Positions 2,237-21,347 of a stretch of 21,613 nt of DNA are shown in pieces. The notes under the pieces are model-generated. The model ran no database searches, was not told the origin of the DNA, and worked only from the letters and a program-made list of their open reading frames with translations. This stretch comes from a virus, in IMG/VR virus record IMGVR_UViG_3300030333_002979, positions 1-21,613 of that record, one strand, 5' to 3'. A program made the position numbers and the translations under genes. Within the stretch, counting starts at the first letter, position 1; each line of letters opens with the position of its first letter.

Positions 2237-3655
2237 GTGACTTTCAGCGCATACGGCGGTTACAGACAAAACAGAAAGCCAGCGGAAGCGCGTGTTGTTG
2301 AAGTTGACGACCCTAACCAGCAATGGTTAAACATGCAACCGCATTGGGGGCTGATTGAAACCATTATTCAGGGAACTTATGAAATAAGATCTAAGCATAG
2401 AAAGTATTTACCGCAAGAGGAACGTGAGTCGGATCTCAGTTATGATGCAAGACTTAGCAGAAGTGTTTTAAGCCCTTATTTCATCAGAATCGAAAGAATG
2501 TTAGCGGGTATGTTGACCCGTAAGCCAGTGCAATTAAATGACACTCCCGATGAGATAAGAGAAAATTTATTTGATATAGATTTGAATAATAATGATTTGA
2601 ATATCTGGACTTACGAGATGTCGCGTAAGTTGCTCAGATACGGACATGTTGGTGTTCTTGTCGATGCTCCTGCTTTGGAATCAGAAGAAGGCAGGCCTTA
2701 CTGGGTAACATATACACCGAGAGATATTATCGGGTGGAAGACTGAGAAAAAAGAAGGAAAGGACCTTTTAACGCAGTTACGTTTAGTTGAAAGAGTTTTA
2801 ATAGAAGATGGTTTATATGGAGTTAAAGAGGTTGAGCAAGTCAGGGTATTAACTCCTGGGAACTTTGAGATTCATCGAAAGAATAAAGACGGTAAATTTA
2901 AGATTGAGGAGCAAGGTACAACGTCACTAGATGTTATTCCTTTTGCTGTTGCTTACTCAAATAAGGTTGGTTATTTGGAATCACGTCCCCCCATGTCTGA
3001 CGTGGCTGAACTTAACTTGAAGCATTATCAAATTCAGAGTGATTATGACAATATTTTGCATTGCGCTGCTGTGCCAATGCTTTCGATTTTTGGGATGCCT
3101 CCAAGCGATGGTGAAATCAGTGCAGGACCAGGCGAAGCTTTCGCAATGCCAGCGGAGGCAAGAATTGAATACATAGAACCAGCGGGCAATAGCTTTTCAG
3201 CACAACAAGAACGGCTCAAAGAAATAGCATCTCAAATTAATGAACTAGGACTCGCTGCAATTCTTGGTCAAAAGCTGAGTGCCGAGACAGCAACTTCAAA
3301 AGCTATCGACCGTTCTCAATCGGATGCCACTATGTTGGTCGTGGCTCAACAGGTACAGGATTTAATTGATAATTGTCTAAGATTTCATGCTGATTATTTA
3401 GGGCTTGAAAGCGGAAGCTGTTATGTCAACCGTGACTTCATGGCAGCTCGTCTTGACCCTCAAGAAATCGGAAGCTTGCTGCAACTTTATACAGCAGGAA
3501 CTATTTCAAAAGAGACATTATTAACCATGCTCTCGCAGGGTGAAGTGTTACCTGATGAGTTTGATGTTGAGGAAGAATTGGCTGCAACAGAAGGAGCTTT
3601 ATTAGATCCATCACCCGTTGAGATAGGGGAAGAACCTGCTGAAGTAGAGGAGTAG
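2237..3655 (+). CDS. Portal protein, DUF4055 type
   Basis: This 472-aa protein resembles the DUF4055 group of phage portals. The N-terminal part includes KHRKYLPQEERESDLSYDAR and SPYFIRIERMLAGMLTRKPV, the middle has a YGHVGVLVDAP segment, and the C-terminal third is helical with an acidic end (EELAATEGALLDPSPVEIGE). Twelve copies would form the ring at one capsid vertex through which DNA enters and leaves, and to which terminase and then the connector bind. The start is GTG at 2237 with GAGG at 2225-2228. It is followed after 3 nt by the MuF gene, the usual portal-MuF pairing. Confidence 0.88.
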   Translation: MTFSAYGGYRQNRKPAEARVVEVDDPNQQWLNMQPHWGLIETIIQGTYEIRSKHRKYLPQEERESDLSYDARLSRSVLSPYFIRIERMLAGMLTRKPVQLNDTPDEIRENLFDIDLNNNDLNIWTYEMSRKLLRYGHVGVLVDAPALESEEGRPYWVTYTPRDIIGWKTEKKEGKDLLTQLRLVERVLIEDGLYGVKEVEQVRVLTPGNFEIHRKNKDGKFKIEEQGTTSLDVIPFAVAYSNKVGYLESRPPMSDVAELNLKHYQIQSDYDNILHCAAVPMLSIFGMPPSDGEISAGPGEAFAMPAEARIEYIEPAGNSFSAQQERLKEIASQINELGLAAILGQKLSAETATSKAIDRSQSDATMLVVAQQVQDLIDNCLRFHADYLGLESGSCYVNRDFMAARLDPQEIGSLLQLYTAGTISKETLLTMLSQGEVLPDEFDVEEELAATEGALLDPSPVEIGEEPAEVEE

Positions 3656-3658
3656 AAA

Positions 3659-5809
3659 ATGGCTGACCCTAGCGGAACGCCATCAAGTGTCTTCAAACAC
3701 GCTATTAATTTGAATCGTTACGGGTCAGGTGTGGCGAAGAGATTGATTATTGCTTACAACCGCATTCTGGTCGATGCGACGAAAGAATTGCAGTTAATGG
3801 GAGCAAGAGATTATTCAAGTTCTTATAGAGCAAAACGTTTAAGGCAAATTATCGGATCATTAAAAACAAGCCTCGATGGTTGGGCTGGTGATGCAACAAA
3901 ATTTATGACAAAGGATCTTGATGAATTAGCAAAAATAGAAAGTGAATTTGCTTTAGCTCAATTACTTCAGGTGACACCAGACGCTGATGACCTTGTTCGA
4001 GAATTAGAAATCAGTCCAGAATTTGCAAAGGCTGTTGTTACGAAAGACCCCACAGAATTGAACCTTGTCACGACGGAGGCGGGTGATTCTTTGACGGGTA
4101 AAGGCGTTTATAAATTGACTGCAAAGCAAGGAACGCCGATGGTTTTGCCTAATGGCGACACTGTGGAAAAAGCTTTCAGGGGTATTGCTAATACATCAGC
4201 ACAGAAATTCCGTTTAGTTGTCCAAGATGGATTGTTGACGGGCCTATCTACAGACAAGATCGCCCGTCAGATTATAGGAAGACAGGGAGGGATGAATTTC
4301 GCAGCGGGGCAGAAAATAAGTGCCAGAGCTATGGCGTTAGCAGGGGGAGAAAAAGGAACGCGATTGGCGAATCATCAGATTATGTCTTTAGTAAGAACAA
4401 GCGTTAATCAAGTTTCAAACACTGCAAGTCAAGAGACTTATAAAGCGAACTCAGCAATCACTAAAAAATACAGATACGTAGCAACGTTGGATAGTCGTAC
4501 AACTCTTTTATGCGCTTCAAAAGATGGAAAATTATTTGATTATGAAGAAGGTCCAATGCCTCCGCTTCATTTTAATTGCAGGTCAACAACTGTTCCTGTT
4601 ATTGATTGGGATGGATTAGAAAAAGATTATGGGATTGTTGCACCTGACAAAATAGAGGGAGTAGGGCAAGCAAAGAGAGCAAGCAAAGATGGGCCTGTTC
4701 CTGCAAATGAAAAATATGGCGATTGGTTATATAGCAAAAGGGTGAAGGAAGGCAGTAAAGTTTTACCTGGATCTGAGCAGATTGACGCGCTTGGATATGA
4801 TAAAGCCGTTTATTTTAATCGCTTGGCGGCTAGATATAAAGATCCGAACAAGGCAATTGTTAGCTTGGTAAGGGAGGACGGAACAGAGAAGACGTTAGCT
4901 GATTTAAGGCGTGACTATAAATTGAAGAAAGTTGATAAAGCTATTAAGGCCGCAACTAAAGAGGTCCAAGAGAGGCTTCCGTCTGTTGAACAGTTACAGG
5001 TGATCGCTTCTGCTTCTAAGTTAAAGGCAAAAGACGTTCAGCAGACGTTTGATCTAATGGACGAGATGGAAGGCAGTGCTGGTGAAAACGCCCGCAAGTT
5101 ACGTCAATTCACAGAGAAGAAAGGGGTCGCCGCTATTTGGTCTACTGGTAGAGAAGCGACTGTCAGTAGAGCCAAAAGTGAGAAAGGGATGGCCTTCATT
5201 CTTGACAATCCTTATTTAAGAGAAGCCATGAAGAAGGCCGATAAGACAAGGTTCGGTAAGGAATACAAAGAGATCTTCGCAGAAAGAGCGAGGAGAGGCG
5301 GCCCAGGCTATACGGCTAAATCTTATTTCACGATGTATAAGCAAAGAAAAAGCGTTAAAGGCTTCACTTTTAGGGAAGGTTCTAACCATATTGTTATTCG
5401 TAGAGATAGCAAGACTATTGGTGTAACAAAAGCAAGCCAGTTAGGGAAGATAAGAAAGAGCGTAAAAGATGTAATCACTAAGAGATTTGAAGGTGGCCGT
5501 TTCAATTTGGATAGGAGTGCTGGCGGTCAGTTGAGATATACAGAACCAGAAATCACATGGCTGACAACTTATATTCATGAAATGGGTCATCAGGTTCATT
5601 TCGCCGCAAAAGAATTGTCTTACGAGAAGTTTTTTGAAGGAGCTGAGAGAATATGGAAACCTAGCGTGTATGGTGGATCAGATAACCTGGAAAGGTTTGC
5701 AGAGACTTTCGTGCAGTATGTTTTAGCACCTGATAGTCTTAAAAAAGCCTCACCTGAAGCGTACAAATGGGTTGACACAGCCATGACAAAAGCATTGAAG
5801 GCGTTATGA
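3659..5809 (+). CDS. MuF (SPP1 gp7-like) head protein fused to a lethal factor-like zinc metalloprotease domain
   Basis: This 716-aa protein starts at an ATG with a strong GAGGAG ribosome site. Residues about 225-315 form the Phage_Mu_F/SPP1 gp7 domain: RTSVNQVSNTASQETY, then LDSRTTLLCASKDGK (from 277) and PPLHFNCRSTTVPV (His304, Cys307, Arg308). Such proteins bind the portal and enter the capsid in low copy. SPP1 gp7 itself is near 300 aa, so about 400 residues are additional. The C-terminus carries HEMGH (640-644) and, about 35 residues on, NLERFAETF (676-684), then LKKASPEAYKW and a terminal helix. HExxH plus a downstream ExFAExF is the anthrax lethal factor-type zincin pattern, with Glu678 the likely third zinc ligand. 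I infer a protease packaged with the genome and possibly delivered to the host. A maturation role is also possible. Confidence 0.85.
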   Translation: MADPSGTPSSVFKHAINLNRYGSGVAKRLIIAYNRILVDATKELQLMGARDYSSSYRAKRLRQIIGSLKTSLDGWAGDATKFMTKDLDELAKIESEFALAQLLQVTPDADDLVRELEISPEFAKAVVTKDPTELNLVTTEAGDSLTGKGVYKLTAKQGTPMVLPNGDTVEKAFRGIANTSAQKFRLVVQDGLLTGLSTDKIARQIIGRQGGMNFAAGQKISARAMALAGGEKGTRLANHQIMSLVRTSVNQVSNTASQETYKANSAITKKYRYVATLDSRTTLLCASKDGKLFDYEEGPMPPLHFNCRSTTVPVIDWDGLEKDYGIVAPDKIEGVGQAKRASKDGPVPANEKYGDWLYSKRVKEGSKVLPGSEQIDALGYDKAVYFNRLAARYKDPNKAIVSLVREDGTEKTLADLRRDYKLKKVDKAIKAATKEVQERLPSVEQLQVIASASKLKAKDVQQTFDLMDEMEGSAGENARKLRQFTEKKGVAAIWSTGREATVSRAKSEKGMAFILDNPYLREAMKKADKTRFGKEYKEIFAERARRGGPGYTAKSYFTMYKQRKSVKGFTFREGSNHIVIRRDSKTIGVTKASQLGKIRKSVKDVITKRFEGGRFNLDRSAGGQLRYTEPEITWLTTYIHEMGHQVHFAAKELSYEKFFEGAERIWKPSVYGGSDNLERFAETFVQYVLAPDSLKKASPEAYKWVDTAMTKALKAL

Positions 5810-6003
5810 CATTAATGGAACAGGCGGTAGAGGCTGCGGTTACTTTCCCTGCCAACAAAAACGCCCCCAAAGAAGTAAAAGAGATCTTTGCCAAAGCGAA
5901 AGGCAGAGAGAAGGATGATATTGCGTCAACGGTGGAGATTCTTATGGTTAGATCAGGAGGGAAGAAAGAATTGCTATCTATTATCGATCGTTATTGGGAA
6001 TAG
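5806..6003 (+). CDS. Hypothetical 65-aa protein coupled to the MuF-metalloprotease gene
   Basis: The gene overlaps the MuF stop by four bases (ATGA), which indicates translational coupling. The product is a small, mixed-charge, probably all-helical protein (MTLMEQAVEAAV, then PKEVKEIFAKAKGREKDD and LLSIIDRYWE) with no membrane segment or known motif. A second in-frame ATG at 5815 lies at a better distance (13 nt) from GAAGG at 5797-5801, so the protein may start there. A small gene tied to a MuF-effector gene could encode an inhibitor, immunity or loading partner of the protease, but this is inference from position only. Confidence 0.65.
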   Translation: MTLMEQAVEAAVTFPANKNAPKEVKEIFAKAKGREKDDIASTVEILMVRSGGKKELLSIIDRYWE

Positions 6004-6053: not shown

Positions 6054-7247
6054 ATGGCTCGTCGATATGTAAGGGACAAGGCAGGTCGTTTTGCGCCTAA
6101 AGGAGGAGGCAGCAAGGGCAAAGGCGGCAAAATGGGGAAATCTGCCAAGAACGTGAAAGCAAGGGCGGCTTATAAGGAGCAGTCAGGGAAGCTAAGAGAA
6201 GCAAAGAAGATGGGCACGTTTGGGAAAGAAGGATCAAGGGAGCGTAAATATTGGACTAGGCGGTTAGGCGGTGCGAAGTCAGGAATGACTCGCGTAAGTA
6301 ACAGGCTGGCAGGCAAGGGCAAGGGCGCAGCAGCCACAAAAGCGGTAGGAACTGGGCCAAAGCAAACAAGAGGAGTTAAGAAGAAAAGAGGAGCGAAGCA
6401 ATACGACAACACCACTAACCAGATGTTTAGGTCGAGAAAGCTAAAAAGAGATTTAAAGCGTAAATACCCTGAATCGAAAGCAGCTAAACGGGTAGAAGCA
6501 AAAGCAAAGAAGGCTACAGCAGCAAAGAAAAAGGTGGCCGCAAAGAAAAAAACTTACGGAGGCCTAACACCTAAGCAGCAATATAAAGTAGCGACAAGTA
6601 AGGCCCGTGCAGCCAAGTCAGGTTACGCACAAGACAGAGGTCAAGGGTATGACAGAGCTGGGAAGGCCGCAGGAAAAGGAAAAGTAAAGAGGTCCATGAA
6701 ACTTCCTGGAACCGATTCAGCAAGGGGCATTGGTTCAGCTAAGGCTCGGGTGACAAAGCTTCAAAAGAAATTCGGGAAAGGGGCCACAAAAGGGAAAGGT
6801 TATGGTCTATCGAAAAAAGGACAGGCGGCTAAGAGTAAATTCAAAGATTTAAAGAGGCAAAGAGGCGGAGTCACTAAGGGCAGAGGAACGATTGCACAAA
6901 GGAAGAAGAGTTTGAATGTCAGAACGACTCAACAGGCCTTTGGAATGAAGGTTAAAAAGCCAGTAAGTAAGGCGGCTCAGAAGTATATTGGCAAGCAAAA
7001 TGTTGAAGCTTCTAGGGTCGCGGCTTCTAGGGGTAAAGGCAGCAAGGCGAAAAGACGGGCTAGCCAGCAAAGGAGAGGTTCAGCCGCTACAAAGAGAGAT
7101 CGTATCTTAAGAACGGCTGAGAAAAATCTAAGAAAGAGTGGAGGGATCCAAAGCCCAACCTTTGAGAGGAGAAGAAGACGCTATCAGAAGGCCGAGGATA
7201 TTATGACTAAGGCAATGGGCGGAAGTACAGCTTGGAAAAACTTCTAA
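6054..7247 (+). CDS. Extremely basic Lys/Arg/Gly/Ala-rich protein, candidate nucleic-acid-condensing head protein
   Basis: This 397-aa protein opens with MARRYVRDKAGRFAPKGGG. I recall the same opening motif (YVRDxxGRFA) in uncharacterised marine phage proteins. By eye about a third of the residues are Lys or Arg, acidic residues are sparse, and histone H1-like tracts such as AKKKVAAKKKTYGG occur. Repeated KGKG, AKKA and SKAK patterns with few hydrophobic stretches predict an intrinsically disordered chain. No enzyme motif is visible. The frame is long, uninterrupted and sits between the MuF gene and the scaffold, so it is a real gene. A DNA-binding internal head protein, or cargo packaged by charge, is the likeliest role, by inference. 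Its stop overlaps the stop of the convergent minus-strand gene. Confidence 0.75.
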   Translation: MARRYVRDKAGRFAPKGGGSKGKGGKMGKSAKNVKARAAYKEQSGKLREAKKMGTFGKEGSRERKYWTRRLGGAKSGMTRVSNRLAGKGKGAAATKAVGTGPKQTRGVKKKRGAKQYDNTTNQMFRSRKLKRDLKRKYPESKAAKRVEAKAKKATAAKKKVAAKKKTYGGLTPKQQYKVATSKARAAKSGYAQDRGQGYDRAGKAAGKGKVKRSMKLPGTDSARGIGSAKARVTKLQKKFGKGATKGKGYGLSKKGQAAKSKFKDLKRQRGGVTKGRGTIAQRKKSLNVRTTQQAFGMKVKKPVSKAAQKYIGKQNVEASRVAASRGKGSKAKRRASQQRRGSAATKRDRILRTAEKNLRKSGGIQSPTFERRRRRYQKAEDIMTKAMGGSTAWKNF

Positions 7248-7492
7248 TCATCAGCAATAAAATCGTCTAGTGTTTCGAGGTCTTCCATGACGTTGGCCCA
7301 GAACTCAGGCACTAACAACACGTCGTCTTGGCTATCAGCTTTACCTAGTGTAATAACGTCAGCCATTTCGTTTCCTGTGACGACATAGACCATTGTTTCG
7401 TTCCCCTCGCCATCAACATCAGGGACGGAGGCAAGGAGTTCGCGTAATTCTCTAACAGTGAAGCCTTCTTCTTTAATGATTGGGCTAGGCAT
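7244..7492 (-). CDS. Hypothetical acidic 82-aa protein, the only minus-strand gene
   Basis: On the minus strand an AGGAG lies 9 nt before the ATG, supporting a real gene. The protein is strongly acidic: about 21 Asp/Glu against 4 Lys/Arg, with tail EDLETLDDFIADD. The segment FTVRELRELLASVPDVDGEG, followed by a beta-like VYVVTG, resembles small phage proteins with a TVxELxxxLxxxPD pattern (DUF6225-like) that have no assigned function. It converges with the basic-protein gene and shares 4 nt at the stops. It must be transcribed from its own promoter or by antisense reading of the region at 7493-7552. A regulatory or charge-neutralising role is speculation. Confidence 0.7.
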   Translation of the reverse strand: MPSPIIKEEGFTVRELRELLASVPDVDGEGNETMVYVVTGNEMADVITLGKADSQDDVLLVPEFWANVMEDLETLDDFIADD

Positions 7493-7552: not shown

Positions 7553-8245
7553 ATGTCTGAAGAAAACGTTGAACAGTCTACGGCTGTTGATCAATCCGAA
7601 ATTGATGCACTAAAAAGAAGCATTGAAAGCCTAGAAAAGAAAAATTACGAATTGATAGGCAAATTAAAGAAAAAAGAAACGCCTGAAAAACCAAGCGATT
7701 ATGAAGAGCTTGTTGAATTTAAAAGGCAAGCAGAACAAAAAGAGTTAGAGGCTAAGGGTGAATATTCCAAGGCTTTGCAGTCACGGGAGGATCAATTCCG
7801 TAGTGCTGTTAAAGAGAAGGATGACAAGATCAAGAAACTTGAAGCAAAAATCCGAGATCTTGAATTGATTTCACCTGCCCTTTCTGCTTTATCTAATGCG
7901 GTGCATGACACCGATTATGCCCTGGAAAAATTAGGTAAAGATAAGTTTGAAGTAGCAGAAGATGGTTCTGTTATTTATGTTGATGAGTTCAGTAAAATGA
8001 CAATAGAAGAAGCCGTTCAGAAAAAATTAGCAGCTAATGATCGAACAAAATGGGTTGTTAAAAAACCTGTTGCAAGAGGAGGAGGGGCTTCACAGTCAGG
8101 TTCATCGACAGGTAGCGGCGTAGACGAAGGCGACTTAAAACATTTCTTAAAAGGATCTGAAAATTTAAGTGAACAAACCCGAATTTATAAGCAGCAAGGC
8201 CCAGAAGTCTGGAGAAAGCTTAGAGAAATGGCAGAAAGCCGCTAG
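7553..8245 (+). CDS. Capsid scaffolding protein
   Basis: This 230-aa protein has the composition and layout of a phage scaffold. A charged coiled coil spans about residues 16-110 (IDALKRSIESLEKKNYELIG, later EKDDKIKKLEAKIRDLEL). A less charged middle follows, then a Gly/Ser linker (GGGASQSGSSTGSG) and a basic, helical C-terminus (EVWRKLREMAESR) that could bind the capsid protein. It lies immediately before the major capsid gene, the normal position. It would guide procapsid assembly and then leave or be degraded. No dedicated prohead protease is seen between portal and capsid; the only protease-like domain nearby is the MuF-linked zincin. Assignment is by architecture and position. Confidence 0.8.
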   Translation: MSEENVEQSTAVDQSEIDALKRSIESLEKKNYELIGKLKKKETPEKPSDYEELVEFKRQAEQKELEAKGEYSKALQSREDQFRSAVKEKDDKIKKLEAKIRDLELISPALSALSNAVHDTDYALEKLGKDKFEVAEDGSVIYVDEFSKMTIEEAVQKKLAANDRTKWVVKKPVARGGGASQSGSSTGSGVDEGDLKHFLKGSENLSEQTRIYKQQGPEVWRKLREMAESR

Positions 8246-8335
8246 TATATTGATTAATCACTGAAAAATAGGTTACGCCTGTCTAGTGAGTTAATGGGTT
8301 ACGCCCAAACTGCAAAATTATCTGAGTAATTCAAC
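8246..8335 (+). other. Leader of the major capsid gene with a direct repeat
   Basis: This 90-bp gap contains GGTTACGCC twice, at 8271-8279 and 8297-8305, 26 bp apart. It is the longest untranslated leader in the late gene block and lies before the most highly expressed gene. I see no good -35/-10 pair, no hairpin terminator and no Shine-Dalgarno sequence before the capsid ATG. The repeats could be an activator or RNA-binding site. Confidence 0.4.
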
Positions 8336-9367
8336 ATGGCTCCTACAAGACGGAGTGATGTCATCATCCCAGAGGTTTTTGTTCCTTACGTCGTACAGGC
8401 GACCACTAACCTAGACCGCTTTTTGCAGTCTGGAGTTGTACAGCCATTGGCGGAACTGAATGGAACTGAGGGCGGTGACTTCGTAAACATACCTTTCTGG
8501 GGTGCAAATCTTTCAGGAGATCAAGAGGTTCTATCTGATAGCACTTCATTGACACCTGGCAAGATCAGCACAGGCAAGCAAATCGGTGTGCAGCTTCACA
8601 GAGGCCGTGCATTCGAGGCAAGAGATTTAGCATCTATTGCTGCTGGATCTGACGCTATGGCTGCTATCGGCAACAAGCTTGCTGCTTACATTGCTAACCA
8701 AAGACAGAAGGATCTTCTTGCTACTTTAGAAGGTTGCTTCGGATCACTTAACGCTAATGATTCAAACAGTGCATTTTTTGCAATGTGCGTTGATTCAGAA
8801 AGTGGTGATTCACCTGCTGTCTTAAGTCCTAGAACTGTTGCCGCTGCTAGAGCCAAGTTTGGCGAGCAAGGCGATAAGCTTGCTGCTGTTGCTATCCATA
8901 GCAATACTTACTATGACTTGGTTGAGCGTAAGTTGATTGATTACGTTTCTACTGCTGATGCACGTGGCACAACCACAACTCAGTCAGGCGGAACAATGGC
9001 AAACGCTTATGGTGGCGACGACAAAGTTCCTACCTTCTGCGGTTTGAACGTCATCGTCTCAGATGATGTAACCACTACAGGATCAGGTGCAACCACTGAG
9101 TACGCTGCTTATTTCTTCCAGCCTGGTGCTGTAGGAAGTGGCGAACAGGCAGCCTTGGACATTGAGCAAGATAGAGACATCTTGGCTAAGTCTGATGCGA
9201 TCAGTTATGACGCACATTATTGCTATCACCCAGTTGGTAGCAAGTGGGCTGTAACTACAACAAACCCAACCGTTGCACAACTTCAAACTGTTGCAAACTG
9301 GTCTAAGGTTTATGAAAACAAGAACCTCGGTATTGCTCGCGCAACCGTAGTTTCTAACTACGATTAA
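8336..9367 (+). CDS. Major capsid protein (Gp13-like, presumed HK97 fold)
   Basis: This 343-aa protein fits the family of major capsid proteins that begin with a conserved IIPEVFVPYVVQ stretch and SGVVQ, followed by VNIPFWGANLSGDQEVLSD and the LTPGKIS/QIGVQLHRGRAFEARDLA region. The central helix AIGNKLAAYIANQRQKDLL and the later AVAIHSNTYYDLVER also match that family. It would form the icosahedral shell. There is no long N-terminal delta domain, which agrees with a separate scaffold gene upstream. There is no Shine-Dalgarno sequence (leader ends TAATTCAAC before ATG) despite expected heavy expression. Confidence 0.92.
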   Translation: MAPTRRSDVIIPEVFVPYVVQATTNLDRFLQSGVVQPLAELNGTEGGDFVNIPFWGANLSGDQEVLSDSTSLTPGKISTGKQIGVQLHRGRAFEARDLASIAAGSDAMAAIGNKLAAYIANQRQKDLLATLEGCFGSLNANDSNSAFFAMCVDSESGDSPAVLSPRTVAAARAKFGEQGDKLAAVAIHSNTYYDLVERKLIDYVSTADARGTTTTQSGGTMANAYGGDDKVPTFCGLNVIVSDDVTTTGSGATTEYAAYFFQPGAVGSGEQAALDIEQDRDILAKSDAISYDAHYCYHPVGSKWAVTTTNPTVAQLQTVANWSKVYENKNLGIARATVVSNYD

Positions 9368-16988: not shown

Positions 16989-17622
16989 GGTTTACGGAGC
17001 TTTAAAAAAGAGACTTGGAGGTATTGGCCGCTTTGAATTTGAAGCGCAAAACCCCGCTCAAGCAATCAAAGCTCTATGCGCTAATTTCCCAGGCTTAGAG
17101 AAATGGTTAATAGATAGTGAACAAGATGGCATTGGTTATAAGGTCACAGTAGGGAAAGAAGAAGTAGGAGAAGATAATTTTGAAACCTTAGCAATACCTT
17201 GGAGTGAGAATGATGTTTTTAAAATCGTTCCAGTAATGACAGGGTCAGGGCGAGGATTCGGGAAAATACTCCTGGGAGCTGCATTAATAACAGCGGCAAT
17301 TGTCTTTGCTCCAGCAGCAGCAGCAGGAGGTGGCTTCATGACAGCAGCGGCAGCAGGAACAAAAATGACCGCGATTGGTCTTACAACACAAATCGCAGGA
17401 TCAATTGGTATTAGCTTGGTATTAGGTGGAGTAGCTCAAATGATTTCGCCAACTCCACAAACTAATCTTGGTCAAAGTAAAGAGGCTGCCCGATTACAGA
17501 ACTACAGTTTTTCGGGAATTGTCAACACGAGTCAGCAAGGTATGCCAATTCCTATTGCCTATGGACGAGTCTTCTGCGGAAGTGCTGTAATTAGTTCAGG
17601 CCTAGATGTAGATCAAGTATGA
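16975..17622 (+). CDS. I: Tail assembly protein I-like
   Basis: This 215-aa protein aligns by eye with lambda gpI. It begins with a ubiquitin-like part (KVVKVYGALKKRLGGIGRFE, AIKALCANFPGLEKWL) ending in IVPVMTGSG. A hydrophobic Ala/Gly-rich segment follows (FGKILLGAALITAAIVFAPA, 92-150), then SLVLGGVAQMISPTPQTN, almost identical to the lambda stretch MVLGGVAQMLAP. The end GMPIPIAYGRVFCGS resembles the lambda VLPVLYGEMRVGS end. It helps assemble the tip with gpJ, gpK and gpL. Its stop overlaps the gpJ start (ATGA). Confidence 0.9.
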   Translation: MKVVKVYGALKKRLGGIGRFEFEAQNPAQAIKALCANFPGLEKWLIDSEQDGIGYKVTVGKEEVGEDNFETLAIPWSENDVFKIVPVMTGSGRGFGKILLGAALITAAIVFAPAAAAGGGFMTAAAAGTKMTAIGLTTQIAGSIGISLVLGGVAQMISPTPQTNLGQSKEAARLQNYSFSGIVNTSQQGMPIPIAYGRVFCGSAVISSGLDVDQV

Positions 17623-20600
17623 GACAAATACAAGGCGCTGGAGGAGGTGGATGTTTTGCAGGTCATACTCCTGTAAAAACTGGTGATGTAGAGAAAAGGA
17701 TTGACCAAATAAAAGAAGGTGATTATGTCTGGAGCTTTGACGATCAAGGGCGAATCCATGAAAGCAAAGTTCTAAAAGTCCATAAGCACGAAAATGAAAA
17801 AATAGTTGAATACAAGTTATGGGGAGGTGTTAGTCTTTGTGCTACTCCAAATCATTGGGTCTTAAATCAATACAATGCTTTTGTTGAAATTGGTAGTCTT
17901 GGTTTTGATGATTGCTTAGTTAGTACAGACGATCACTTATTACCGATAGTCGGGAAAAAGGAATTAGAAAACGGGACTGTTTATAACTTAACGATTGAAG
18001 ATCATCACACCTTTTTTGCTGGTGGTATTCGTGTTCACAACGCCGGACTAGGAATTGCTGGGTCAGGCGGGGGCGGTGGGGGCAAAGGTGGTGGAGGTTC
18101 AACTCATACCCCAACAGAAGCCGATGACTCGCTTCAGTCAAAGCAATTCGCAACTGTTTTAGACCTCCTTTGCGAAGGCCCTATTCAAGGATTAGATGAT
18201 GGATATAAAAGTATTTATCTGAATGGAACACCCGTTCAAAGCGCAAGTGGGAGTAATAATTTCGAAGGCTATTCAATAGCGACAAGAAACGGAACTCAAG
18301 ACCAAACTTATATCCCCGACTCGATGGGAGCACAAAGCGAGAAAGTCGTAGGCGTTGCTGTTACTCAATCGGTTCCTGTTACTCGAACAATTACGGATTC
18401 AGACGTTGATAGAGTCAGGGTCACAATTAAAATTCCTTCGCTTCAGATCATCGAAAACGATGGAGATATAACAGGGCATAGCGTTACTTATCAAATTCAA
18501 GCTCAATACAATGGAGGTGGTTTTAACACCGTCAAGACAGACACAGTAAATGGTAAAACAACAAATGCTTATCAACGTGATTACTTAATTAGCCTTAGCG
18601 GAGCCTTCCCTGTTGATATAAAAGTTGTCAGGACAAGTGCAGATGATTCAAGTTCAAGGCAACAAAGTGCAACTATTTGGACAAGTTACACAGAAATAAT
18701 TGACGAAAAATTACGTTATCCGAATTCGGCTCTCTGTTATCTCAGATTTGACGCAAAGAATTTCAATTCCATTCCATCTAGAAAATACTTAATTAGAGGA
18801 ATAAAAGTAAAAATTCCGCATAATGCAACAGTTGACACAAGCACCCATTTGGGGCGTATCACGTATTCGGGAGTTTTCAATGGAACACTCGGAGCTGCTA
18901 CTTGGACAAATGATCCTGCTTGGTGTTTATATGACCTGCTAACTAATACTCGTTATGGAGCATCTATCCCTGCAAGTTCGCTTGATGTTTATGATTTTTA
19001 TACAATTAGCCAGTATTGTAACGAGCTTGTAGATAATGGGAAAGGAGGTCAAGAGCCTAGGTTCTCACTGAATATCGTGATAAACGCAAGAGATGAAGTT
19101 TATAACGTCATTCAAGAATTAACTTCAATATTCCGAGGGATTAGTTATTACTCAGCAGGCTCACTTGTTTTATTGCAAGATAAGCCTCAAGATAGTCAGT
19201 ATTTAATCGGTCCGAGCAATGTAGTTGGTGGAGATTTTCTATATAGCGGTACTTCACAGAAAGCAAGACACACGACGGCCTCTGTTGGATACCAAACCTA
19301 TGAAAACCTAGGGGAGGTTGAGACTGAGTACGTAGAGGACGCTGATGCTGTTTCAAAATTTGGAGTAATTAATAAAGATATTCGATCAGTCGGCTGTTAT
19401 TCGCAGGGGCAAGCTCACAGAATCGGCAAGTGGCTCTTGTTAAGCGAACAAAATTTAACTCAGACTGTTAGCTTTTCGATTTCGATTGAAAGCGGAATCA
19501 TTCTCCGACCGGGGATGGTAATAGATGTCGCCGATCCTGTAAGAGCAGGGACGCGCCGATCGGGTAGATGTTCCACGGGGTCAACTACAACTCAAGTTAT
19601 TCTTGATAGCTCCACGGACCTAGCTGTTGACCTTGGTAACAGCCCAACAATTTCCGTTTTGCTCCCCAATGGACTCGTTGAGACTAAAACTGTCACGGCA
19701 ATATCAGGTGCGACAGTTTCAATTAGTGGGGCTTTCTCAGAGGCTCCCGCAGCCCAAACTGTTTGGATGATTCAAACGACTGACGTTCAATCTCAGCAGT
19801 ATCGAGTTATTAGTATTGCTGAAAACGCGGATGCTACTTATGCCTGCACAGCTCTTGAATATAACAGCAGCATTTACGCATCTATAGAGTCAGGAATTGA
19901 TCTGACGCAAAGAGATATTACTGATTTATCTGCCGAGCCTGATCCAGTTAGCTCTTTAAGCTTTACCGAGTTTTTATATCAAGATGGTCAAACGGTATTT
20001 TCAGCTGTTGATATCGCTTGGATTAGCCCAAGAACAAGAGTTTCAGAATTTAGAGTCCAATACAAGATAGACAATGACAACTGGACTCAGGTTGTTACGA
20101 CCTCGCCGTCTTACACAATCAGACAAACAAGGCCGGGAACCCTTTCTGTTCAAGTTCAGGCGTACAACTACCTAGGAAAGGGAAGCACTTTCACAACAGG
20201 TTCAACTGACTTGGTGGGGAAAACTGCTGTTCCAGCCAATGTTCAGAACCTTAGTTTCGAAGCTATTGGTCCAAACTCTGGAAGATTGCGGTGGGATCAA
20301 ACGGTTGATTTAGATGTAAAAGTCGGAGGAAAAGTTGCGATCAGGCACAGCTCGAAAACTGACGGCTCTGGAACTTGGGCTAATTCTGTTTCACTCATTT
20401 CAGCTAAATCAGGGGTTCAAACCGAGGCGATTATTCCGCTTGTCGAAGGAGAAGTCTTAGTTCGCTTTGTCGATGATGGAGGCAGAGTTTCGGCTTCTTC
20501 TGCAAGCGTGATTGTTGACTTGCCCGACACGATGAATCAGTTGGGCGTTTTCACAGACAGGGAAGATACGGACAGCCCTCCGTTTCAAGGGACTGCTGTT

Positions 20601-21347
20601 AATTGTCATTATAGCGATACAGAAAGTGCTCTTGTTTTGGACGGTCAAAATATTGATGAGATGCCAGATTTTGATGCGATCGTCAACTTTGATGTTCTAG
20701 GCGATGTTGACTCTTCTGGTACTTATACGTTTGATGAAAAACTTGATTTAGGAGCTATTTATTCTCTTGATTTAAAACGTCATTTTGCAACAGTTGGATA
20801 TTTACCAAATGATCTTTTAGATTCCCGAGCCGCAACTGTTGACACTTTTGCTGATTGGGACGGAGAGGTCCAAAACGTAGATGCAAAATTATATGTCCGT
20901 CAAACTGATAATGATCCAGCTTCAGGGGGCGCAAGTTGGAGTTCTTGGCAAGAATTTGTCAACGGTACATTCCGAGCTAGAGGGTTTGAGTTCAAAACAA
21001 CGATGACAAGTTCAGACACAGACGAATCAATTAAAATCACTGAGCTTGGTTATTCAGCGACACTTCAAAGAAGAACAGAGCAAAGTAATGGGAATATTGC
21101 ATCAGGAGCAGGAACTAAAACTATTACATTCTCACGGCCCTTTTTCGTTGGGACTTCAGCTTTAGGTGGAGCAAATAGCAAGCTTCCAAGTGTCGGAATA
21201 ACAGCTCAGAATATGGCAACAGGTGATTTCTTTGAGATGGGAACAGTTACGGGAAGTCAATTCCAAGTAACATTTAAGAATAGCTCTGGCTCCAGTGTTG
21301 ACAGGAATTTTACTTGGAGTGCTACCGGGTATGGGCTTGGAGCTTAA
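17619..21347 (+). CDS. J: Tail tip (host specificity) protein J-like with an inserted Hint domain
   Basis: This 1242-aa protein is the central tail tip protein. After residue 141 it follows lambda gpJ closely from the start: KGGGGSTHTPTEADDSLQSK, FATVLDLLCEGPIQGLDDGY, TRTITDSDVDRVRV, SYTEIIDEKLRYPN, LYDLLTNTRYGASIP and QGQAHRIGKWLLLSEQN. A fibronectin III-like region (SSLSFTEFLYQDGQ to VQAYNYLGKG) lies near residues 785-865. The C-terminus (SVGITAQNMATGDFFEMG, FTWSATGYGLG) resembles H-type C-terminal binding modules of phage J and fibre proteins. Before this, residues 12-141 form a complete Hint domain, inserted after MRQIQGAGGGG. Without it the protein is about 1,112 aa, close to lambda gpJ (1,132). 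The start is coupled to gpI by ATGA. Confidence 0.93.
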   Translation: MRQIQGAGGGGCFAGHTPVKTGDVEKRIDQIKEGDYVWSFDDQGRIHESKVLKVHKHENEKIVEYKLWGGVSLCATPNHWVLNQYNAFVEIGSLGFDDCLVSTDDHLLPIVGKKELENGTVYNLTIEDHHTFFAGGIRVHNAGLGIAGSGGGGGGKGGGGSTHTPTEADDSLQSKQFATVLDLLCEGPIQGLDDGYKSIYLNGTPVQSASGSNNFEGYSIATRNGTQDQTYIPDSMGAQSEKVVGVAVTQSVPVTRTITDSDVDRVRVTIKIPSLQIIENDGDITGHSVTYQIQAQYNGGGFNTVKTDTVNGKTTNAYQRDYLISLSGAFPVDIKVVRTSADDSSSRQQSATIWTSYTEIIDEKLRYPNSALCYLRFDAKNFNSIPSRKYLIRGIKVKIPHNATVDTSTHLGRITYSGVFNGTLGAATWTNDPAWCLYDLLTNTRYGASIPASSLDVYDFYTISQYCNELVDNGKGGQEPRFSLNIVINARDEVYNVIQELTSIFRGISYYSAGSLVLLQDKPQDSQYLIGPSNVVGGDFLYSGTSQKARHTTASVGYQTYENLGEVETEYVEDADAVSKFGVINKDIRSVGCYSQGQAHRIGKWLLLSEQNLTQTVSFSISIESGIILRPGMVIDVADPVRAGTRRSGRCSTGSTTTQVILDSSTDLAVDLGNSPTISVLLPNGLVETKTVTAISGATVSISGAFSEAPAAQTVWMIQTTDVQSQQYRVISIAENADATYACTALEYNSSIYASIESGIDLTQRDITDLSAEPDPVSSLSFTEFLYQDGQTVFSAVDIAWISPRTRVSEFRVQYKIDNDNWTQVVTTSPSYTIRQTRPGTLSVQVQAYNYLGKGSTFTTGSTDLVGKTAVPANVQNLSFEAIGPNSGRLRWDQTVDLDVKVGGKVAIRHSSKTDGSGTWANSVSLISAKSGVQTEAIIPLVEGEVLVRFVDDGGRVSASSASVIVDLPDTMNQLGVFTDREDTDSPPFQGTAVNCHYSDTESALVLDGQNIDEMPDFDAIVNFDVLGDVDSSGTYTFDEKLDLGAIYSLDLKRHFATVGYLPNDLLDSRAATVDTFADWDGEVQNVDAKLYVRQTDNDPASGGASWSSWQEFVNGTFRARGFEFKTTMTSSDTDESIKITELGYSATLQRRTEQSNGNIASGAGTKTITFSRPFFVGTSALGGANSKLPSVGITAQNMATGDFFEMGTVTGSQFQVTFKNSSGSSVDRNFTWSATGYGLGA
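17652..18041 (+). other. Hint (intein-like) domain within gpJ
   Basis: Residues 12-141 hold all splicing blocks. Block A starts at Cys12 (CFAGHTPVKTGD), block B is CATPNHWVL (Thr76, His79), block F is VYNLTIEDHHTFFAG and block G is GIRVHN ending at Asn141. At 130 aa there is no room for a homing endonuclease. The residue after Asn141 is Ala142, not Cys, Ser or Thr as canonical inteins need. This fits A-type bacterial intein-like domains, which cleave or splice non-canonically. It lies between two glycine-rich runs, which reads as an insertion into a flexible linker. Asn cyclisation would release a gpJ beginning almost where lambda gpJ begins. Confidence 0.88.

Follow-up and report, generated by a model that had tools for sequence, protein, structure and literature searches.

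The gene located at positions 6054-7247 (plus strand) of a viral DNA stretch of 21,613 nucleotides (IMG/VR record IMGVR_UViG_3300030333_002979; hereafter the window) encodes a strongly basic protein in which a short N-terminal tag, near-invariant across phages over its first ~13 residues, is joined to a body built from shuffled cassettes whose modules are under purifying selection. Our reading, to which we give an even chance, is that the product is a capsid-internal, tag-directed, DNA-binding polycation that is ejected by a cyanosiphovirus-type phage; encapsidation, DNA binding and injection are what we infer from the comparisons described below.

The open reading frame begins with ATG and specifies 397 amino acids (K 78, R 45, A 53, G 52, E 10, D 9 and no Cys), of which 31% are K+R and 5% D+E, giving a net charge of +104 and a pI of 11.7. 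The first-pass annotation had called this frame as an ultra-basic protein of 397 residues, dominated by K, R, G and A and with few acidic residues, and its coordinates and composition agree exactly with these values. Homologues were gathered in two ways, by sequence similarity and by synteny via the major capsid protein (MCP); L-numbers (L001, L023 and so on) label the viral contigs or loci compared. The annotation had named frameshifts in homologues as the sign of a non-coding frame; in 28 homologues of the basic gene, the start is conserved and the frames are open. Pairwise dN/dS (omega), taken over the well-aligned parts, is 0.08-0.17, about 0.1, and the differences between the window and L001 at codon positions 1, 2 and 3 number 24, 20 and 89, third positions being dominant. 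The low dN/dS together with the third-position bias rules out a non-coding frame, and 6054-7247 is a real gene.

As had been proposed, the gene lies within the head gene cluster; its place there is between MuF/g65 and scaffold/MCP. The gene order is TerS-TerL-portal-MuF-g65-basic gene-m82 (minus strand)-scaffold-MCP, beyond which lie connector and tail genes. The neighbours on the plus strand include the large terminase (861-2222; phrog_2, 5.4e-43), the DUF4055 portal protein (2237-3655; phrog_145, 1.9e-113), a minor head protein of MuF type whose C-terminal region is variable and HExxH metallopeptidase-like (3659-5809; PF04233, 8.6e-13; phrog_241, 1.6e-90), the small gene g65, which overlaps the end of the MuF gene (5806-6003), the scaffolding protein (7553-8245; phrog_206, 1.3e-22) and the Gp13-like MCP (8336-9367; PF20036, 2.8e-13; phrog_247, 5.6e-80). 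Among named phages, the cyanophages KBS-S-2A (MCP 74%), S-H1 (66%) and MED4-184/P-HS2 (60%) come closest in MCP and portal. Because of this affinity, the window is classed by sequence as the head cluster of a cyanosiphovirus-type phage, any host assignment being indirect. A sigma-70 promoter scan of the MuF-scaffold slot found none, and the genes named in the window do not include a separate prohead protease. In the cultured cyanophages, several small genes, most of them basic, stand one after another in the MuF-scaffold slot instead of the single tagged gene (7841-8715 in MED4-184, L059; 5964-6702 in KBS-S-2A, L057; 7072-7955 in S-H1, L058). Between L010 and L019 the basic gene, m82 and the scaffold gene are 100% identical and the MCP gene only 93%, which suggests that a recombination junction lies between these last two genes. 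Further downstream, the J-like central tail-tip protein of the window (17619-21347, plus strand) carries near its N-terminus, at residues 19-144, an intein/HINT-like domain that begins CFAGHTPV, ends VHNAG and matches PT-HINT (8.3e-08) and Intein_splicing (1.1e-07).

The tag comprises amino acids 1-19 of the basic protein (MARRYVRDKAGRFAPKGGG; 6054-6110, plus strand), with the core M[AG]RxYxRDxxGRF[AS]xxG, present a single time in the window and absent from each of 100 shuffles. Viral contigs were scanned with a DNA pattern that allowed for all codons of M[AG]RxYxRDxxGRF, with only few residues admitted at position 4, and at least 120 stretches were matched, related phages included. A control pattern of the same make-up with scrambled residues gave 0 matches in viral contigs, and the tag pattern itself was found in 0 of 84,980 genomes of prokaryote species. 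These counts bear out the annotation's point that the YVRDxxGRFA opening is common to otherwise dissimilar basic phage proteins. When position 8 was freed in the pattern, Asp was found in 114 of 115 matches, the exception resembling a chance match; when position 5 was freed, Tyr was found in 114 of 121, the remaining matches (Q, F) being likewise, for the most part, tagged basic proteins. Common to the 64 representatives of tagged clusters, whose mean column identity is 10%, are M1 A2 R3 Y5 R7 D8 G11 R12 F13, all of them columns of the search pattern, although freeing position 5 or 8 barely raised the number of matches. Of the 137 tagged ORFs listed, 135 have A or S at position 14 and 133 have G at position 17, neither being demanded by the pattern. 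Arg7 is written with all six codons and synonymous codons are free to vary, which indicates that the tag is conserved as a peptide and not as DNA. The exact pattern is absent from the three complete cultured relatives (KBS-S-2A, S-H1 and MED4-184/P-HS2), and the tag is therefore not essential to this head type.

The tagged set comprised 137 non-redundant ORFs, about 28 of which came from an MCP-based fetch that is biased towards head genes and the rest from the blind pattern. All 137 ORFs listed are strongly basic, with a net charge per residue of 0.14-0.32, and none contains Cys (33,264 residues). The idea that zero Cys is unique to tagged proteins was rejected because the tape measure protein is likewise Cys-free (0/21,673); the scaffold has 4/19,282, and MCP, TerL and portal are unlike them. 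The head role supposed in the annotation is supported by context, since head or packaging genes occur on the same stretch as 134 of the 137 tagged ORFs listed (about 28 being from the head-biased fetch). Among the matches listed, the slots occupied are TerS-TerL (32), MuF-scaffold (26), TerL-portal (18) and portal-MuF (10), counts that refer to ORFs and not to independent events. A phage can carry several tagged genes, up to three or four. Other candidates were discarded: the tag-like match in L181 is internal to a larger ORF, and those in L185 and L180 are chance matches. Inside the tagged proteins of L077, L163 and L172, a degenerate stretch resembling the tag appears a second time (RLTRDNAGRITSVGG...GATARGGRL), as would result from a fusion of two tagged genes.

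Behind the tag, the body of the window protein is divided, in plus-strand order, into module A, of helical-hairpin type and common to L012, L013, L014 and L022 (aa 20-86, GKGGKMGKSAKNVKARAAY...GGAKSGMTRVSNRL; 6111-6311), module C (aa 88-138, RGVKKKRGAKQYDNTTNQMFRSRKLKRDLKRKYPES; 6315-6467), a Lys/Ala-rich linker deduced from the alignment (aa 139-168; 6468-6557), module F (aa 169-331, GYGLSKKGQAAKSKFKDLKRQRGG...TTQQAFGMK; 6558-7046) and module E, a C-terminal helical hairpin (aa 332-397, RGSAATKRDRILRTAEKN...AEDIMTKAMGGSTAWKNF; 7047-7244). Module C (YDNTTNQMFRSRKLKRDLKRKYPES) reappears at aa 131-181 in L023/L024, 359-391 in L010/L019 and 234-266 in L012; module F lies behind other modules in L008, L056 and L004; and displaced copies of module E are found at 147-212 in L020, 245-306 in L009 and 280-345 in L014. 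In L008, L009, L014, L020 and the window, the modules that precede the C-terminal RGSAATKRDRILRTA...GGSTAWKNF module differ. In total, 52 pairs of displaced modules were recorded (at least 30 aa and at least 55% identity, related sequences counted). Neighbours whose scaffold genes are 97-99% identical may share only the first ~65-130 nt of the basic gene, and in several pairs the shared 5' block stops just past the tag. L021 and L023, with 98% identical scaffolds and 100% identical m82, share the basic gene over nt 1-75 only; L001 and L006 are 99% identical in the scaffold, 94% upstream and 97% downstream, and only 10% of the basic gene can be aligned. The bodies are shuffled cassettes whose modules are under purifying selection. 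The comparison of the opening with the variable tail, which the annotation had recommended, thus yields a near-invariant opening and swapped bodies, and the opening behaves like the tag it was suspected to be, conserved at the protein level across six Arg codons and joined to exchangeable bodies.

Structure prediction with AlphaFold2 gave no global fold (mean pLDDT 54 for the window protein and 57 for that of L014), and confidence was low for the tag and the middle parts. In the L014 model, module A is predicted as helices at 32-87 (block pLDDT mostly 67-85), and module E is the best predicted part, with block pLDDT of 65-85 at 341-390 in the window model and 73-90 in L014. The description of the product as a disordered polycation therefore holds for its strong charge and fails as the whole story, since the modules are discrete, selected and, in some cases, predicted to be helical hairpins. 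A Foldseek search with the L014 model returned no match at E <= 0.001, generic helical hairpins only. Searches of Pfam, PHROGs, NCBIfam and PDB with the window protein, the 64 tagged representatives and a profile produced isolated chance-level matches only; one chance-level PHROG of unknown function aside, neither the representatives nor the window protein matched PHROGs or Pfam. The statement that no characterised member is known agrees with this lack of a curated family match in the four collections, where no nucleoid-protein family was matched significantly either, and the label 'histone-like' is consequently not retained as a family assignment. A tblastn comparison of three tagged proteins and the tag with 50,697 phage records found none, a negative that is weak and no proof of absence because the low-complexity filter of BLAST was on.

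The basic gene is followed by m82 (7244-7492, minus strand), which encodes a convergent acidic protein of 82 aa and whose stop overlaps that of the basic gene by 4 nt. The net charge of the m82 family ranges from -12 to -17. Among 54 deduplicated MuF-to-scaffold loci, 24 have tag and m82, 28 have neither, 2 have the tag only and 0 have m82 only; m82 is present only where a tagged gene fills the MuF-scaffold slot, and tagged genes in other slots are without it. The tag/m82 label switches several times on the scaffold tree, and near-identical scaffolds occur with tag and m82 (L038/L039/L055) and without them (L041/L045/L051/L054). Corrected for phylogeny, the link is supported by 2-3 concordant and 0 discordant independent pairs (p >= 0.25), so few that it is not significant, and the association suggested by these sequences is regarded as suggestive. 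A match of m82 to Pfam NAP (E = 0.03) was rejected as a product of acidic-tail composition, and most acidic ORFs on the strand opposite other tagged genes were set aside as antisense shadows. Those beside the tagged genes of L105, L120, L142 and L169 look real: each is an unrelated convergent acidic ORF of its own (e.g. MNKDQLRIQIAKAYKEMEIAIEAF...), with a net charge of -6 to -11, located downstream on the opposite strand in L120, L142 and L169. These ORFs hint that tagged genes may repeatedly be accompanied by an acidic partner.

Exchange also affects the MuF gene, whose C-terminal region differs among relatives (window and L001-L056). Most long MuF versions have an HExxH peptidase-like region, with ATLF-type matches in L008 and L009; the MuF of L004 has, judged by eye, an ADP-ribosyltransferase-like region and no HExxH; and other relatives have a short MuF with no extension. 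In most relatives, a long, C-terminally extended MuF is followed by a g65 gene of 60-75 aa, whose identity between groups is often only about 22-37%. By analogy with the literature on MuF toxins, g65 may act as an immunity-type partner to the C-terminal region of MuF. A required processing of the polycation by the MuF metallopeptidase was rejected, because L004, L038, L039 and L055 encode tagged proteins next to a MuF without HExxH.

The reading that we prefer, an ejected polycation directed to the capsid interior, would work as follows. During assembly, the invariant N-terminal peptide (core MARxYxRDxxGRF) would serve as a targeting tag and dock the protein on a lineage-specific part of the procapsid, namely the scaffold, the portal, MuF or the inner face of MCP. 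The exchangeable, strongly basic modules would bind the DNA inside the capsid and pass with it into the host, and once there, module-specific contacts may protect the DNA or blunt first-line host defence; such contacts would lead to the body being swapped by recombination downstream of the fixed tag. m82 is probably a dedicated partner of the version found in the MuF-scaffold slot, acting as a charge-neutralising chaperone or an antidote. A capsid-targeting signal with an ejected cargo is suggested by the invariant peptide, the exchangeable bodies, the linkage to head genes in every slot, the absence from cellular genomes and the lack of Cys. Against ejection, head-cluster position alone also fits a late protein that stays outside the virion. 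To a broader reading we grant, taken as a whole, slightly less than an even chance: these phages would have an undescribed cargo system in which one tag brings recombining Cys-free polycations, several per phage, into the capsid interior, one version forms a mobile cassette together with a convergent gene for an acidic neutraliser, and the whole, built of shuffled modules that include helical hairpins, is an independently evolved counterpart, in uncultivated cyanosiphovirus-like phages, of the internal proteins of T4.

It is unlikely, in our judgement, that the protein is a pure charge neutraliser, confined to the capsid and condensing or packaging the genome without injection or host action, in the manner of protamine or adenovirus core proteins. 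The net charge of +104 per chain, the K/A/G/R composition, the head operon and the basic nature of all 137 listed bodies regardless of their modules fit such a role. However, charge alone needs neither modules at omega about 0.1 shuffled as units nor several different tagged proteins per phage, and close relatives with the same head lack a tagged protein. Purifying selection within modules, combined with module swapping, favours specific contacts over simple charge neutralisation. More doubtful still is a late polycation, made in the infected cell and absent from the virion, whose binding partners are nucleic acids, ribosomes or defence complexes of the host and which is restrained by m82 as a toxin is by its antidote. 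The occurrence of m82 with the tag only (24 of 54 deduplicated loci with both, 0 with m82 alone) and a hypervariability typical of host-conflict genes are in its favour, whereas the strict link of the tag to head and packaging genes in every slot and the lack of any match in 84,980 prokaryote genomes fit a virion role better, and tagged genes outside the MuF-scaffold slot have no m82. We attach little credence to a procapsid assembly accessory, whose tag would bind the scaffold and whose body would organise it and then leave or stay in traces: the tagged gene often adjoins the scaffold gene, the products are Cys-free like the scaffold and the tag goes with one head lineage, but the same tag is found in four slots, often distant from the scaffold, and scaffolds that are 97-99% identical are paired with completely different bodies. 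Finally, a spurious frame or a composition artefact, as low-complexity K/A/G content and the lack of a database family might imply, is refuted by the dN/dS, the third-position bias and the conserved start and frames of the homologues, and has virtually no probability left.

The ejected polycation that we favour has parallels in known systems. In the T4 internal proteins IPI, IPII and IPIII, only the capsid targeting sequence is conserved and the bodies differ, and once injected these proteins disarm specific host nucleases (PMC3012670, PMC12373910, PMC9391042); their Lys residues touch DNA phosphates (PMC3012670). Likewise, the tagged proteins carry unrelated bodies (10% mean column identity among the 64 representatives) on one short conserved N-terminal signal, their set and number vary between close relatives, and their loci recombine and get lost. 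Unlike those of T4, they belong to a different lineage of phages with another type of head, their tag is basic too, and the bodies are modular, reach 529 aa and occupy several head-operon slots. The window protein and the 64 representatives have no homology to T4 internal-protein families in PHROGs or Pfam, so that the tagged proteins would work alike but cannot be counted as members of that group. A second parallel is gp44 of phage 80alpha, which is encoded between the portal and scaffold genes and is a basic DNA-binding ejection protein (17.5% K+R, about 2 copies per virion), carried in the head, that enters the cell alongside the genome and protects its ends (PMC7290940). The window gene also lies between portal and scaffold and its product, judged from its sequence, is basic; unlike the tagged proteins, gp44 has no tag family and no module shuffling reported. 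By position, the MuF protein of the window, and not the basic gene, is the likely counterpart of gp44, which we take to be MuF-type.

MuF polymorphic toxins (PMC5576092) and polyvalent proteins (PMC5512222) combine a fixed head-delivery part with a swapped effector in head gene clusters. The tagged protein is similarly made of a fixed and a swapped part in the head cluster, and the MuF of the window itself has a variable C-terminal peptidase-like region. Unlike these proteins, the basic protein has no MuF domain or recognisable enzymatic or effector domain in Pfam, and its delivery part, compared with that of MuF toxins, would span only about 13-19 residues. The small ORFs of KBS-S-2A, S-H1 and MED4-184/P-HS2 share the MuF-scaffold position and are short and mostly K/R-rich, but they are separate genes without the tag and without detectable homology to the tagged modules.

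The exchange of whole bodies at 97-99% scaffold identity places the basic gene among the parts of the head cluster that change fastest, and the bodies are therefore good candidates for host-specific or anti-defence factors. If our reading is true, these phages would have a second tag-and-cargo packaging system, unrelated to that of T4, and the tag would be short enough for trial as a tool to load proteins into siphovirus heads. The tag, if it is a capsid-targeting signal, would provide a sequence handle for the proteins that uncultured phages inject, and with it for their host takeover and counter-defence in the first minute.
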